Positions 8,696 to 32,994 of a DNA stretch of 34,463 nt are shown here, piece after piece. How positions within the stretch are numbered: the stretch's first letter is position 1; each line of letters opens with the position of its first letter. Made by a program: the position numbers and the translations under genes. Below the pieces are notes generated by a model. The model was not told the origin of the DNA and did no database searches. It saw only the letters and a list, made by a program, of their open reading frames with translations. The DNA is from a virus, in IMG/VR virus record IMGVR_UViG_3300042463_000551, positions 1 to 34,463 of that record; one strand, written 5' to 3'.

Positions 8696-10680
8696 TTCGA
8701 TTAGTAATAAATGGAGTTGATGCGGACGTATTCCAAACTGAAACTATTATTGGTGAATATGCTATTGCACCGATAGGAGATATATCAAAAAGAGTAGGTG
8801 CGAGGTCAATTTCATTTAAGCTACCAAAGACGGCAAACAACAAAGCAATTTTTGAAAGTTGTGAAGTACCTACATCGGTTTCAAATATACCATATGAAAA
8901 AATCAATTGCCGTTTATACGTTGACGGCGTTGATATGAATATGAGATTTTGTACTTTAGAAAAGGTCGACCAGTATTATAATATAAGAACATACGGAACT
9001 AATAGCAATTTGTTTATTGACTTAAAAAATAAAAAATTATCTGATTTAGATTTAAGTGCTTATAACCATCATTGGGGCGTTGAATATTTACCAACGACTT
9101 ATCCTCAAAATTTTCCAATAAAATACCCAGCTATAGATTTTAATACAGATAGCCCCAATGCTGCTATTCCAAATGGGCAAAATTATATATGGATGGGAAC
9201 GCTTTTGCCTTGCGTTTATGAATCCTTTATAATTCAAAAAATATTATCAGAGGCTGGCTATACATTGAATAATGAAACGAAATCGTTAAGTTTTTTTAAT
9301 AATATAGAAACTATAATTCCATTAGGTAGCAAAGAAATGAAGCGTGATACCTTAACTAATAGATATTTAGCGTCATTTCAAATGAATGATGGTACTATAT
9401 CTGTTTCACAACAAGGTAATAGTTATCCTTCTAATTGGCTAATGAAAAATATAATTAGCCAAAACGAAAGGTATTATAATACAACTAATTCAGGGCTTGG
9501 AACGACATACGAAAGACCATTTTTATTGCCCGATGCTTTAATACTTAGGGCTAATTTTCAATTTGAAATAAGAGCAGCAACCACATATAATGATTTAGTT
9601 GGCATTGAAGATACCAATTTTCAGTTTGCAAACAACTCGTATTATACTCCTGTAAGGGTTACTACTAACTGGCAAACAGTAACTATTAATAAATATATAA
9701 ATTGTTATTCTCAAAATATTAATGGTGATTATTTTTTTAAGGTTGTTATAAGACCGTCTACGCAAGGTATTCCAACACATAACGTAGAAGTCAGGAACGC
9801 AAGATTAGACATAACTGAATCTGCAAATTTCAATACTGAGCGTACAAAAATTGAATACGCTACAAATAGGCAAGTTAAAACATATATAACCATTGCAAAC
9901 AATTTACCTGAATTAACACAGGCTGATTTTTTAAAAGATTATTTAGTAAGGTTTAGTTCAACTATAACTCTTAATGAGTTTGTAAATAGTGTAACCATAT
10001 CACCTTATAAAAAAATACTTGACAATATAAATAATGCTATTGACTGGAGTGGTAAATTAGATTATACCGATAAGCCGCAAGTTGATTTTGAACTTGATTA
10101 TGCACAAAATAACAGCTTTTTATATTCAGATGATGAAGCTATAACAAAACCACTTGGAACTGACTTTAGCTTTACAATTCCAAACGAGAATTTAGAAAGT
10201 CAAAAAAATATATTCACAAGCAAATTTACCGCATCTCCACTTGTTATAAGGCAGACAAACAAAGAAATGGCGCAGATACCAATATTTACTGCCCAATTAA
10301 TTAATGAACAAAGCAAACCAAAAATTTTAATAATGGCAATTGAATCAGGAACTTTTACTTATAGAAAAGACATTGCTACTAATACTGGTTCTGTTTCAAT
10401 ATTGCCTCATTGGGTTGGGTATTTCATAAAGCCTAATGTAAGTTCTTTAGGTTTTGGTAACAATATATTTGTCAATTTCTTTAATTATATTTTGGGAATA
10501 GTTACTTCTGCTAAAAAATATGAAGTTAATTTAAAATTAACTCTTAATGATATAAGCACATTTGATTTTTTAAAGCCTGTTTATATCAGAGAACTGGATA
10601 CTTATTTTTATGTGAACAAAATAAAATTTGACTATACATCTAAAAATAGCAGTGTAGTAGAACTTATAAAATTATTGTAA
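8692..10680 (+). CDS. Large minor tail / baseplate protein (GTG start)
   Basis: A 662-aa protein starting with GTG in a GTGA overlap. The N-terminal ~120 residues include SISFKLPKTANNKAIF, a LP-K-T-x-N-N motif typical of large minor tail proteins in Bacteroidota siphophages, probably a Dit/Tal-like hub component. The remainder alternates beta domains with aromatic-rich loops; ARSISFKLP and INCRLYVDGVDM are the best-defined strands. It directly precedes the tape measure gene and shares one base with it. Codon use is strongly A/T-ending, like its neighbours. Confidence 0.6.
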   Translation: MIRLVINGVDADVFQTETIIGEYAIAPIGDISKRVGARSISFKLPKTANNKAIFESCEVPTSVSNIPYEKINCRLYVDGVDMNMRFCTLEKVDQYYNIRTYGTNSNLFIDLKNKKLSDLDLSAYNHHWGVEYLPTTYPQNFPIKYPAIDFNTDSPNAAIPNGQNYIWMGTLLPCVYESFIIQKILSEAGYTLNNETKSLSFFNNIETIIPLGSKEMKRDTLTNRYLASFQMNDGTISVSQQGNSYPSNWLMKNIISQNERYYNTTNSGLGTTYERPFLLPDALILRANFQFEIRAATTYNDLVGIEDTNFQFANNSYYTPVRVTTNWQTVTINKYINCYSQNINGDYFFKVVIRPSTQGIPTHNVEVRNARLDITESANFNTERTKIEYATNRQVKTYITIANNLPELTQADFLKDYLVRFSSTITLNEFVNSVTISPYKKILDNINNAIDWSGKLDYTDKPQVDFELDYAQNNSFLYSDDEAITKPLGTDFSFTIPNENLESQKNIFTSKFTASPLVIRQTNKEMAQIPIFTAQLINEQSKPKILIMAIESGTFTYRKDIATNTGSVSILPHWVGYFIKPNVSSLGFGNNIFVNFFNYILGIVTSAKKYEVNLKLTLNDISTFDFLKPVYIRELDTYFYVNKIKFDYTSKNSSVVELIKLL

Positions 10681-29617: not shown

Positions 29618-30173
29618 AACATTAGGCTCAGTAGATTGTGCCGACAAAATCGAAAAGAAAAACGGACTATCTTATTTAAGTTGGTCTTGGGCTTGGAATG
29701 AAGTCAAAAAACGATATGCAACAGCGAATTACAGAGTTGTTAACTTTGATGGCAGACCTTACCTATTTGATGAAAACTTAGGGTACTTGGTGCAAACAGA
29801 GGTAACTATTGATGGCGAAACAATCCCGATGCAACTTCCTGTAATGGATGGCGCAAATAGAGCGCAAAAGCACGTTGTGTACCAGAAGTTTAATAAGGAT
29901 GTTATGCCTGCTACGATGTTTGATATTAACACAGCAATTATGAGATGCTTAGTTAAGAACCTTGCAATGTTTGGACTTGGACTTTATATCTATTCAGGTG
30001 AAGATTTGCCAATGATTGATGTGGAGATTGATTTGGAACTTATAAAAGAAAAGTTATCTAAATGCAATAACCTTGACGAGTTAGGCGTATTATACGATTC
30101 TTTACTTCCAGTTGAGCAAAACAAATCAAAGGCTCTATTCACTAAACGTAAAATAGAACTAAATGGAAAATAG
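29601..30173 (+). CDS. DUF1071 ssDNA-annealing-type protein
   Basis: The 190-aa product matches the DUF1071 family, linked to single-strand annealing or binding in phage recombination: LSYLSWSWAWNEVKKRY at ~24-40, GRPYLFDENLGYLVQTEVTI, then MQLPVMDGANRAQK. It is followed by an exonuclease gene (11-nt overlap), the usual annealase-exonuclease pairing for Red-like recombination. The start lies inside the homing endonuclease gene, so the junction is functional. It probably replaces the lost ERF. Confidence 0.82.
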   Translation: MKTVFETLGSVDCADKIEKKNGLSYLSWSWAWNEVKKRYATANYRVVNFDGRPYLFDENLGYLVQTEVTIDGETIPMQLPVMDGANRAQKHVVYQKFNKDVMPATMFDINTAIMRCLVKNLAMFGLGLYIYSGEDLPMIDVEIDLELIKEKLSKCNNLDELGVLYDSLLPVEQNKSKALFTKRKIELNGK

Positions 30174-30894
30174 GAATGGAATGTTTACGGCTTCACGTTG
30201 TGGAGATTTGATGGCAGCAGGAACAGGCAAAACCGCACTAAACTACATCTTTGAAATAGCTGAAAACTTAAACGGACTTAAAAAAGAAGTTAGCACAAAA
30301 CCGATGTTGCATGGGATAGTAAATGAAGTAACGGCAATAGAGATATTAACTTCGATTTACGGAGGCGAACCAAATCAAACATTCTTTAAAGTGAATGACA
30401 AACTTGGGGCTACTCCTGATGCTATTTTAGATGGCAAATGGGTTGCGGATTCTAAGTGTCAATACTCAATATTCAATTATTTTGAACAATGCGATAAGTT
30501 GGCTAAAAAGTACTATCTACAATTACAGGTGCAAATGATGGCATTGAAAGTTGATTATGGTTATCTGATTAACTATTTAACTAAGCCTGAAGAGTTTGGA
30601 CAAGATGACTGGAGCGAATATCCTTTTCCACTTGAAGAAAGATATTTTATTCATGAGATTCCAAAAGATGAAGAAACGTGCGATAATATTTTAGCAACGT
30701 GCGAAGAAAAATATCCTTTAATCGGAGTTGCAGATGAACTATTAAGAAACGCCAAAGTAATGGATGAAGATGAATTTTTCTACATGCAATTTGTGAGCAA
30801 AAAAAGGTATCAAAAGCTAAAGGACATTAACTGGGTGAACTGGGATGGTGAAGTAATTATTAACGAAAAAACAGCGTGGGTATGCAAATCATAA
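30163..30894 (+). CDS. YqaJ/lambda-exonuclease-like nuclease
   Basis: A 243-aa PD-(D/E)xK nuclease: N-terminal FTASRCGDLMAAG, the motif LGATPDAILDG with its metal-binding Asp (~residue 88), the Asp-x-Lys in WVADSKCQYS (Lys ~99), and the QxxxQ helix YLQLQVQMMAL. Lambda Exo degrades one strand of dsDNA ends to create substrate for the annealing protein. The acidic residue before Ser-Lys is Asp in place of the usual Glu. It is coupled to DUF1071 by an 11-nt overlap. Confidence 0.82.
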   Translation: MENRNGMFTASRCGDLMAAGTGKTALNYIFEIAENLNGLKKEVSTKPMLHGIVNEVTAIEILTSIYGGEPNQTFFKVNDKLGATPDAILDGKWVADSKCQYSIFNYFEQCDKLAKKYYLQLQVQMMALKVDYGYLINYLTKPEEFGQDDWSEYPFPLEERYFIHEIPKDEETCDNILATCEEKYPLIGVADELLRNAKVMDEDEFFYMQFVSKKRYQKLKDINWVNWDGEVIINEKTAWVCKS

Positions 30895-31310
30895 ACAGAC
30901 GAAACCAAGTATCATTTACTCGATTCTACGAAAAGGAATATGAGCCTAAGACATTTTCACACATTCATTTTATGGTCGGCAAAAAAAAACCACAGCCAAA
31001 AGACATAACAAATAATGGAGTAAAGCATGAGGAACTTTTAAAGCTGGTTTCTAAATTTACTGGCATTACAATGGAGAAAATACAAGGCAATTCAAGACTA
31101 ACTGATATTGTGATGGTTAGACATATCCATTTTTATTTAGCTTGTAAATATTGTAGCATGACTATTAAAGAAATCGGTAAAATAAACAATCGTGACCATT
31201 CGAGTGTAATACATGGGAGGGATAGGATAACTGCAGATTTGAAATTTGATGGGAAATACACCGATAAGATTAGGGATTATATTGGTCAGATAGTGGCGAG
31301 TATTAATTAA
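30882..31310 (+). CDS. Stand-alone DnaA domain IV-like protein
   Basis: The 142-aa protein (ATG 30882; a GTG at 30876 is an alternative) has an N-terminal basic tail and then a domain like DnaA domain IV: EELLKLVSKFTGITMEKIQG, IVMVRHIHFYLACKYCSM, and IGKINNRDHSSVIHG. The RDHSSVIHG signature contacts DnaA-box DNA in the host protein. The AAA+ ATPase part is absent. It may recognise a phage origin or compete with host DnaA. The stop codon TAA forms the first bases of the repeat at 31308. Confidence 0.78.
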   Translation: MQIINRRNQVSFTRFYEKEYEPKTFSHIHFMVGKKKPQPKDITNNGVKHEELLKLVSKFTGITMEKIQGNSRLTDIVMVRHIHFYLACKYCSMTIKEIGKINNRDHSSVIHGRDRITADLKFDGKYTDKIRDYIGQIVASIN

Positions 31311-31325
31311 CGGTTTGCGTGTATG
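31308..31325. repeat. Cassette-region direct repeat, copy 1
   Basis: TAACGGTTTGCGTGTATG resembles TAACGTTTTGCGTGTTTATG at 31392-31411. The 66 bp between them include the palindrome ACATAA-A-TTATGT. It seems to be a half-site of the attC-like element below. Confidence 0.6.
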
Positions 31326-31391
31326 TTATATCATTCATTAACATAAATTATGTCCGATAAAGCATGAAAAGTCATTCAGATAAATTACGCA

Positions 31392-31481
31392 TAACGTTTT
31401 GCGTGTTTATGTCAGGCGGGCATAGCACGAACTTAATTATTAACCGCAAGCTGTCCGCCCGCTTGCATAAACACGCTGTTA
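31392..31481. repeat. attC-like hairpin 1
   Basis: Outer arms GCGTGTTTATG (31401-31411) and CATAAACACGC (31466-31476) pair over 11 bp. After one bulged T (31412) a second 9-bp stem follows (31413-31421 with 31457-31465, one G-T). The loop is 35 nt. TAAC at 31392-31395 and GTTA at 31478-31481 lie outside the stem. An imperfect stem with an extrahelical base bounded by AAC and GTT is the architecture of integron attC sites. The consensus R boxes are not matched exactly. Its base composition is much richer in GC than the rest of the phage. Confidence 0.6.
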
Positions 31482-31495
31482 GCAGCAGTTATATT

Positions 31496-31735
31496 ATGTC
31501 ATACGGAGAAAAAAGAAGGCATCAATACTTCAAAGTTAAATACCAGTTTAATTATCCATCTGGCAAAAAATGGAAAGAGGAAAGAGAATGTTTATGTTAT
31601 AGCGAAATAGGTGTTAGAGATACTATCAAATGGCTTTTCAAAGGTAAAGATGTTGATATATTATCAATAGAACCTACTGGAAGATTTGCAGGAAGCCCAG
31701 TTTATCCGAGCGGTCACGTTTTGGGTGAATGGTAA
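31496..31735 (+). CDS. Cassette-borne hypothetical protein
   Basis: It encodes 79 aa from ATG 31496 (upstream in-frame ATGs would translate the hairpin and are rejected). The product is basic and aromatic (GEKRRHQYFKVKYQFNYPSG) with RECLCYSEIGVRDTI and a Gly/Pro-rich end. It is bounded by inverted copies GTTAGCAGCAGTTA (31478-31491) and TAATTGCTACTAAC (31733-31746). Short, unrelated single-gene units bracketed this way are typical of integron-type gene cassettes. Function unknown. Confidence 0.6.
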   Translation: MSYGEKRRHQYFKVKYQFNYPSGKKWKEERECLCYSEIGVRDTIKWLFKGKDVDILSIEPTGRFAGSPVYPSGHVLGEW

Positions 31736-31824
31736 TTGCTACTAACGTTAAAAATAAACGATGGTGGCCTATGCGGTTACATAATTTCGGCCACTATTGT
31801 TTATTGATTGTTGCCAGTAGTACG
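31736..31824. repeat. attC-like hairpin 2
   Basis: AATAAACGATGGTGGCC (31753-31769) pairs with GGCCACTATTGTTTATT (31789-31805) over 17 bp with two G-T pairs and a 19-base loop. CTACTAAC (31739-31746) and GTTGCCAGTAG (31810-31820) lie outside and are also complementary in ACT/AGT and AAC/GTT. This is the same plan as hairpin 1, separating two single-gene units. Confidence 0.65.
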
Positions 31825-31846
31825 GATTTTTAAAACAAATTATTTT

Positions 31847-32689
31847 ATGAATGTATTAAGTTTATTTGATGGTATGAGTTGCGGACAAATTGCACTCAAT
31901 AATTTAGGAATAAAAGTAGATAATTACTTTGCAAGTGAAATAAAAAAACACGCAATACAATGTACTAAAGACAATTTTCCAAACACTAAACATATTGGAG
32001 ATGTAACAAAAGTAAAAGCTACTGATTTACCAAAAATTGATTTATTAATAGGTGGAAGCCCTTGTCAAGATTTTAGTCGTGCAAATAGTGTTCGTGATGG
32101 TTTACAAGGAATGAAATCAATGTTATTTTATGAATACATACGATTACTTGAAGAAACAAAACCAAAATACTATTTACTTGAAAATGTAATTATGGACGAT
32201 ATAGGATATAGTACAATATCTGATTTGTTAGGAACTGAACCTGTAAGATTGTGTGGTTCAAAAGTAAGCGGTGCATTAAGAGATAGATTATTTTGGACTA
32301 ATATTGGGCCTGAAAGTTTTGATTTGTTTGGTAATAGAAAATGCGCAATACCACAACCGAAAGACAAAAAGATAATGTTGAATGACGTTTTGGAATACGG
32401 ATATTCAGATAAAAAGAAACACACTTGTTTAAATACAAGTTGTGGTCGAGATGCAAATCAAAGGTATATGTTACACCGATACGTAACTACTGGAATGACA
32501 ACAATAATTTATACAGACGAAACTATGAATGAAAGCAAAGGCGTGAGATATTGCACTCAAACAGAATTGGAAAAGTTGCACAATATCCCAATAGGTTACA
32601 CAAAAAACCTAAACAAAGCACAAGCTGGTAACTTAATAGGTGATGGTTGGAATGTAGGGATTGTGGAGCACATTTTCTCTTATATGTAA
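31847..32689 (+). CDS. C5-cytosine DNA methyltransferase, DNMT3-like
   Basis: A 280-aa DNA methyltransferase read from ATG 31847; the earlier ATG at 31808 lies in the hairpin flank. Motif I is LSLFDGMSCGQIAL, motif IV GGSPCQDFS with catalytic Cys73, motif VI LLENVI with Glu112, motif VIII RDRLFW, and motif X NLIGDGWNV. The VSGALRDRLFWTN stretch and the order of motifs recall eukaryotic DNMT3 enzymes more than classic M.HhaI types. It may protect phage DNA from host restriction. No restriction enzyme is nearby. It sits between inverted GTTGCCAGT/ACTGGCAAC ends. Confidence 0.9.
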   Translation: MNVLSLFDGMSCGQIALNNLGIKVDNYFASEIKKHAIQCTKDNFPNTKHIGDVTKVKATDLPKIDLLIGGSPCQDFSRANSVRDGLQGMKSMLFYEYIRLLEETKPKYYLLENVIMDDIGYSTISDLLGTEPVRLCGSKVSGALRDRLFWTNIGPESFDLFGNRKCAIPQPKDKKIMLNDVLEYGYSDKKKHTCLNTSCGRDANQRYMLHRYVTTGMTTIIYTDETMNESKGVRYCTQTELEKLHNIPIGYTKNLNKAQAGNLIGDGWNVGIVEHIFSYM

Positions 32690-32693
32690 TTAA

Positions 32694-32712
32694 CGTAGTA
32701 TTACTGGCAACG
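32694..32712. repeat. Inverted end of the methyltransferase unit
   Basis: CGTAGTATTACTGGCAACG is the inverted counterpart of GTTGCCAGTAGTACG at 31810-31824. It follows the methyltransferase stop by 4 bp. No long hairpin follows here, so the third site is only partial. Confidence 0.6.
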
Positions 32713-32730
32713 TAAAATAATAAAAGCAGT

Positions 32731-32925
32731 ATGGAAAAAGAAAACAAAATTTTAGAGATACTTGATTTAGTTCAAGAGAAAGTATTAAGCCCCGATGAAG
32801 CACTACCGCAAATATTGCTTTTATTTAGTGTTAGTGGTTCGGTTTGTAAACACGAAAAGGTTATAGGTGTAAGGTGGTGTTATAAATGCACAAATTGTGA
32901 TAAATTGCTCGAGGCGGTAAACTGA
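32731..32925 (+). CDS. Small zinc-ribbon-like protein
   Basis: A 64-aa protein with an N-terminal helix (ENKILEILDLVQEKVLSPDE) and a cysteine cluster (CKHEKVIGVRWCYKCTNCDK) with C-x-H ... C-x2-C-x2-C spacing, suggesting a zinc-binding ribbon. It lies just right of the methyltransferase unit. It may be part of the imported block or the first native gene after it. No family name can be given. Confidence 0.5.
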   Translation: MEKENKILEILDLVQEKVLSPDEALPQILLLFSVSGSVCKHEKVIGVRWCYKCTNCDKLLEAVN

Positions 32926-32994
32926 CCACTAACTACTTTTTAGCATCCGAAAAATTAGGAATTGAAATATTTTTAACCCATAAAATCAATTAAA

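Follow-up and report, generated by a model that had tools for sequence, protein, structure and literature searches.

Integrons are best known as collectors of resistance genes in bacteria, and there are few reports of them from phages. In classical cassettes the attC site is found 3′ of the cassette gene, and the strand which folds is the one opposite to the gene. A survey of 10,705 genomes (Qi et al. 2023, PMC9892861) revealed 17 CALINs, three complete integrons and a single In0. It found attC clusters in virulent phages and demonstrated recombination with IntI1; one of the clusters, in the Polaribacter phage P12002L, contains DNA methyltransferase cassettes. In the parts consulted, an inverted polarity rule, a Bacteroidota integrase family and phage attI platforms are not mentioned.

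The DNA studied here (the window) covers an IMG/VR record in full (34,463 bases) and comes from a tailed phage, with matches to a terminase large subunit and a primase/helicase. A DNA search of the cultured-phage collection for close relatives of the window returned only short local matches, and because these are to Flavobacterium and Bacteroides phages, a Bacteroidota host is suggested. Directly after the stop codon of a gene with a DnaA C-domain (31308-31310) starts a block of genes separated by hairpins. We read the stretch 31311-32933, with a probability of about 0.9 and on the grounds of sequence comparison, as three mobile cassettes in an array, belonging to an integron-like system found in Bacteroidota and their phages. 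The sequence-only reading had proposed a cassette block without integrase at 31308-32712, with two units and possibly representing a distinct cassette system. The nature of the block is supported, whereas extent and count have to be corrected: due to a third hairpin (32709-32832) and the cassette of a 64-aa ORF, the array reaches 32933 and not 32712. The features are as follows; an arrow marks a junction or exchange point.

31303-31311, + strand: left insertion junction at the stop codon of the DnaA-C-domain gene, TTAATTAA↓C; array sequence from 31311
31311-31395, + strand: remnant unit without intact gene or hairpin, with R″-like ATTACGCATAAC at its end
31393-31480, + strand: hairpin site B, AACGTTTTGCGTGTTTATG...CATAAACACGCTGTT, by covariance model and folding
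31478-31746, + strand: cassette 1 body, GTTAGCAGCAGTTA, 79-aa ORF (31496-31735), TAATTGCTACTAAC
31744-31812, + strand: hairpin site C, by covariance model (29.8 bits, E 1.7e-5)
31810-32711, + strand: cassette 2 body, GTTGCCAGTAGTACG, C5-cytosine DNA methyltransferase ORF (31847-32689), CGTAGTATTACTGGCAAC
32709-32832, + strand: long-loop hairpin site D, by sequence and folding; contains the start codon of the 64-aa ORF
32830-32933, + strand: cassette 3 body, GTTAGTGGTTC ... GACCACTAAC, with the C-terminal part of the 64-aa ORF (32731-32925)
32931-32950, + strand: right insertion junction, AAC↓TACTTTTTAGCATCC; compare the attI-like AAC↓TATTATATGTA of phages

Each of the three cassettes (31393-32933) consists of a hairpin recombination site followed by one gene, and the two ends of each cassette gene are complementary to one another, as if the unit had once been circular. 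Thus GTTAGCAGCAGTTA (31478) pairs with TAATTGCTACTAAC (ending at 31746) around the 79-aa ORF, and GTTGCCAGTAGTACG (31810) pairs with CGTAGTATTACTGGCAAC (ending at 32711) around the methyltransferase; these inverted ends and the GC-richer hairpins had been claimed before and are present. The 79-aa ORF belongs to no PHROG family, and its longer reading of 123 aa to no Pfam family. The methyltransferase (280 aa) matches PF00145 (1e-31) and phrog_116 (1e-42), and a homologous methyltransferase cassette with other end boxes and other hairpins is found in a further locus (L111). The array ends with CCACTAAC at 32926-32933 (boundary CCACTAAC↓TACTTTTTAGC). As single-stranded DNA of the + strand, hairpins B and C fold better than shuffled sequences (z -3.6 and -3.3), and they are the only two matches of the covariance model R1 over the 34-kb window. 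The match of hairpin B (31381-31492, 66.5 bits) is a training sequence of the model, that of hairpin C (31732-31824) is absent from the training. Hairpin D is not matched by R1; it recurs at 9652-9773 of the related locus L009 with 86% identity.

The N-terminal part of the 64-aa ORF, which is SHOCT-like, is encoded by hairpin D. At 32709-32925 of the window, at L009 9652-9773 and at L017 8477-8660, this constant peptide (..LLFSV) is fused in frame to varying C-terminal sequences, and recombination appears to build chimeric small proteins. At the other end of the array, the stretch 31311-31394 looks like a cassette remnant. It includes an element of about 65 bp (31319-31383, ATATCATTCATTA..GTCATTCAGATAA) with copies at L009 9586, L017 8035 and L020 8216, which precedes genes at other places in relatives and is possibly a regulatory element moved with the array. 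Two features directly precede the DnaA-like gene and the array (29650-30894): a stretch with similarity to phage single-strand annealing proteins and, behind it, a YqaJ-type exonuclease domain (30163-30894).

Sites of this kind are widespread. The pattern AACGTTTTGCAG N40-70 GTGCTGTT, derived from relatives of the window, is matched in at least 120 viral contig stretches and in 62 stretches of genome contigs; the stem-bearing ones among the latter are nearly all from Bacteroidota, and a few matches under Bacteroidota names have no stem either. Exact-pattern matches outside of Bacteroidota (Pseudomonas, Bartonella and others) showed no stem in the site scan and were rejected as chance matches. 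A stem-aware scan found 311 sites in the collected loci, many of which had been gathered via the pattern, versus two in shuffled sequence. When 31 diverse sites were aligned, double-sided changes were seen at 12 of 18 pairs with 95.5% of cells paired, and the covariation score was reached by none of 500 shuffles; these sites had partly been picked for having a stem, those from public-collection matches by their end motifs only. In a single draw from the phylum of 80 Bacteroidota genomes, chosen regardless of sites except for the centre genome, 22 matched R1 at E <= 1e-6. By computed energies the hairpin strand is the more stable one at 233 of 266 sites in viral loci and at 72 of 84 in genomes, where most loci are MAG contigs and some may be prophage. 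The sequence-only reading would have failed if the hairpins were unrelated terminators without counterparts elsewhere; hundreds of structured counterparts were found. The cultured Flavobacterium phage hemulen6-1 carries a run of eight or more sites, interspersed with methyltransferase genes, so bench tests are possible.

The topology of the units is that of integron cassettes. In a unit that was once circular and carried one site, the own ends should be complementary and the ends across a hairpin should not. Of 126 units, 62% show own-end complementarity; when the ends came from different units the share was 4%, and it was 4.5% for the two ends facing each other across a hairpin. About one third of the units are without clear complementarity between their own ends. 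In 189 distinct units, chosen for a good match at the first nine positions, positions 1-9 and 12-15 match and background is reached from position 16 on. At position 11, 158 of them have G opposite T, a fixed mismatch which the selection did not impose. Like integrons, for example the chromosomal one of Vibrio cholerae, the system has one gene and one hairpin site per unit, tandem arrays on the same strand, cassette ends (own R′ and own R″) which pair to form a complete site in the circle, and a structured single-strand hairpin with one strand folding better, as indicated by covariation and computed energies. The breakpoint described below is compatible with AA↓C, the complement of G↓TT. The system would work like an integron.

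The polarity of the phage units is different. Of 211 decided units in viral loci, 209 have the gene pointing away from its own hairpin and two have it the other way round, and in 52 of 148 distinct viral cassette ORFs the start codon is inside the hairpin. In genome loci 70 units have the gene toward the hairpin and 11 away from it, and these 11 may include prophage contigs. The attC-typical position 3′ of the gene is hence seen in most chromosomal units but not in phage units. The better-folding hairpin strand is the same in both sets, which is the strand opposite to the gene in chromosomal cassettes and the gene's own strand in phages. The integron plan suggested from the sequence holds with the amendment that the cassettes have the order of classical ones reversed, the site being located 5′ of the gene.

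A search for tyrosine recombinases (PF00589) found none in the window, as had been stated from the sequence, and none in 11 related records. A PF00589 protein is encoded in seven of 35 other viral records with sites, in six of these directly after the last site. Up to 235 viral stretches encode relatives of five phage integrases used as queries; 80 of these stretches were fetched and 52 had sites. R1 gave 113 site matches in the 80 loci, 111 of them upstream of the integrase on the same strand, and of the 66 loci whose upstream sequence spans 1 kb or more, 49 have an upstream site. The idea of a cluster lacking an integrase thus applies to the window and not to the system, since at least 49 other viral loci have a matching integrase at the array end. 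Between the last TAAC and the integrase start codon many loci contain an attI-like AAC(A)T..ATATGTA. In bacterial genomes a longer relative of about 365-400 aa is located at the array end, convergent with the hairpin orientation. In ten further genomes, drawn regardless of sites, the best match to one such enzyme lies on an array contig, at the array end, in most cases (for example G160, G107, G169 and G124). Several bacterial contigs end shortly after the integrase gene, where the array would be expected.

The best PDB match of the phage integrases is IntI 2a3v (E 1.6e-48), and as in integrons a tyrosine recombinase and an attI-like site stand at one end of the array. The phage array integrases are shorter than the host ones, and the insert specific for IntI is absent from them in the alignment; host integrases match the IntI profile only as two pieces around this insert. 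The compact catalytic domain without the IntI insert is shared with XerC/XerD. However, the array-linked enzymes are split from Xer by a branch with 100/100 support and fall on the side of IntI1, in a tree where IntI1 is on a long branch and the root is drawn at the midpoint. Nine array-linked host integrases (L278, L279, L281, L282, L284, L289, L290, L293 and L294) share an N-terminal region of about 90 residues (..KWS..WHIP..) which has no Pfam match and is absent from the phage enzymes.

Classical integron cassettes with IntI and attC (CALIN), acquired by a phage, would be one other explanation. It draws on the attC clusters already known in phages, among them that of P12002L with one attC recombined by IntI1 (Qi et al. 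2023, PMC9892861), on the attC-like topology and on the rule of a folded strand. Moreover, P12002L is matched by our site model (E 0.0015; R1 site at 30898-30966, - strand), a Bacteroidota phage which shares attC-type sites and methyltransferase cassettes with the window. Part of the site family of the window was therefore probably seen and tested in that study. However, GTTRRRY/RYYYAAC boxes are absent from the window sites in either reading direction, in line with the earlier remark that the classic R-box consensus is not matched. The window boxes read GTTAGCA and GTTGCCA; the R box of the system is GTTA instead of GTTRRRY, with the consensus GTTANNNG, and the conserved AACGTTTTGCAG...GTGCTGTT motif is a further difference to integrons. 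The site is 5′ of the gene in phage cassettes with the polarity reversed (209 versus 2), and the platforms are encoded by phages. No IntI above the TIGR02249 cut-off was found in 31 site-bearing genomes; the region specific for IntI (TIGR02249, IntI patch III) is not a feature of the array integrases, and the host enzymes have an additional N-terminal region. The class 1 integron plasmid R388 gave no match to the site model. Since R boxes, polarity and the IntI domain all differ when tested, we did not file the locus as a classical integron and consider this explanation unlikely. The integron-like system of Bacteroidota and their phages, as proposed above, is the reading we follow.

Comparison of relatives at the insertion junctions reveals alternate occupancy. 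The junction is empty in L007 (TTAATTAA↓TTACTGGCTA), while L008, L009, L012 and the window read TTAATTAA↓CG followed by differing cassettes. Other cassettes between the same flanks are present in L008, L009, L012, L015 and L017; the right flank is the same in L009 after a different cassette, and L012, L015, L017 and L008 read AACTA(C/T)T..TAAGAG. The sequence-only reading would have been at odds with related phages holding the same genes without hairpins, and the close relatives are instead empty or carry other cassettes. Hairpin B and the 79-aa gene recur in L004 (95% identity over 349 bp), where another hairpin follows; as far as its sequence was fetched, this phage has no other close DNA match to the window. 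In this second phage the 79-aa cassette has two different neighbours at two contig ends. L004 and L005 are the two ends of the contig IMGVR_UViG_3300037487_000459; both ends fall within or close to the same cassette and have differing neighbours, as if the contig had been broken in assembly at a cassette polymorphism within one population.

In a pairwise comparison of 382 sites, 25 pairs have their exchange point at AAC↓G, ahead of the hairpin, and four at G↓TT, behind it; the pairs are not independent events, as several share a contig, and the baseline of hairpin sharing is 0.85%. Swaps between different hairpin types fall exactly at AAC↓G. From breakpoints at this position it follows that hairpins usually move together with the downstream gene and not with the upstream one. 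Movement with the upstream gene, the classical expectation, was rejected for phages (one pair versus 14). Identical hairpins ahead of different genes were counted in 613 pairs, and for hairpin B a 100% identical copy of 87 nt precedes a different gene in L179. Because of these pairs and of the four G↓TT cases a second process must also act, for which recombination at the other arm and exchange by homology between hairpins are the candidates.

The repeated hairpins might be taken as mere homology for general phage recombination, with no site-specific recombinase involved. The 613 pairs of identical hairpins common to unrelated units and the YqaJ domain with the annealing-protein similarity upstream in the window fit such an idea. 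But homology exchange does not predict that different hairpin types are swapped exactly at AAC↓G, nor that the own ends of a unit are complementary across the gene, and a tyrosine recombinase family is tightly linked to the arrays in phages and hosts. We regard general recombination alone as quite improbable.

It is very improbable that the hairpins are transcription terminators or mRNA leaders whose exchange is incidental. They are situated between genes and just before start codons, and a role as leader is also quite possible. However, a start codon within the hairpin in 52 of 148 ORFs, AAC and GTT boxes, end complementarity and the breakpoints are not features of terminators, nor is a Bacteroidota-wide site model with an integrase at the array end expected for them. 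From reading the sequence, hairpins B and C stand ahead of genes, and after them come GTT boxes in place of the T-runs of intrinsic terminators. Least probable of all are miniature inverted-repeat or IS200/IS605-type elements moved by a transposase, which would account for the inverted-repeat-like unit ends, but these ends are unit-specific sequences and not shared terminal repeats, and array growth and an integrase with an attI-like site fit the integron plan.

The sites with their covariation, the cassette topology, the breakpoints, the empty and alternate states and the linkage of integrase and array are read from the sequences. From them we infer the following mechanism for the integron-like system, including the position and strand of cleavage, the circles, the identity of the recombinase and its action in trans. 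In the circular cassette the hairpin would come to lie between the end boxes GTTA.. and ..TAAC, which together with it would make up a complete site of roughly 100 nt, comprising a 9-bp R arm, the mismatch at position 11, 4 bp, an asymmetric GTTTT/T loop, GCA/TGC and a variable stem. The IntI-related tyrosine recombinase would act on the folded strand at TAA↓C. Circles would be inserted behind an AAC-type end, which may be the attI-like TAAC↓..ATATGTA beside the integrase gene or a simple TAA↓C junction such as the one after the stop codon of the DnaA-like gene in the window, and the same recombinase would excise them. As the phage gene reads away from the hairpin, the site forms the 5′ leader of the gene and in many cases provides its start codon along with N-terminal codons. 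No integrase is present in the window or its relatives, and movement there would consequently have to use one in trans, from the host or a co-infecting phage.

Taken further, it is probable, though less so than the cassette array itself, that Bacteroidota phages carry an integron lineage of their own. It would be marked by a short, insert-less IntI-related integrase, an attI-like TAAC↓..ATATGTA and arrays of inverted polarity, in which each gene has the hairpin as its leader or as the sequence coding for its N-terminus, and chimeric proteins can arise by recombination; phages without an integrase would draw on the same pool in trans. Judged by the integrase, the related system with its own integrase family extends to up to 235 viral stretches, and judged by the sites to more than a quarter of the sampled Bacteroidota genomes. 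Paper searches for a version of this system in Bacteroidota or phages yielded reviews, surveys and Qi et al. 2023 only. Phage-encoded platforms, inverted polarity and an insert-less integrase family were not reported in the literature searched, with preprints and most subscription journals outside the search, and we consider their novelty as provisional. The opposite polarity in phages and chromosomes would make it testable how an attC-type site and a gene are joined and how polarity is fixed, both long-standing questions. Insert-less integrases at hairpin arrays would likewise test whether the IntI insert is needed for the recognition of hairpin sites.

The array in the window illustrates how small genes, for example those of DNA methyltransferases, could be traded among phages. 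Among 101 sampled phage cassette proteins, including three from the window, seven belong to N6_N4_Mtase and three to DNA_methylase, and most are without a Pfam family. With ten of 101 proteins in the two main DNA methyltransferase families, the earlier suggestion that the system is a route for spreading anti-restriction genes is plausible. One sampled phage cassette ORF matches class I tRNA synthetase domains, which is unusual cargo for a phage cassette.
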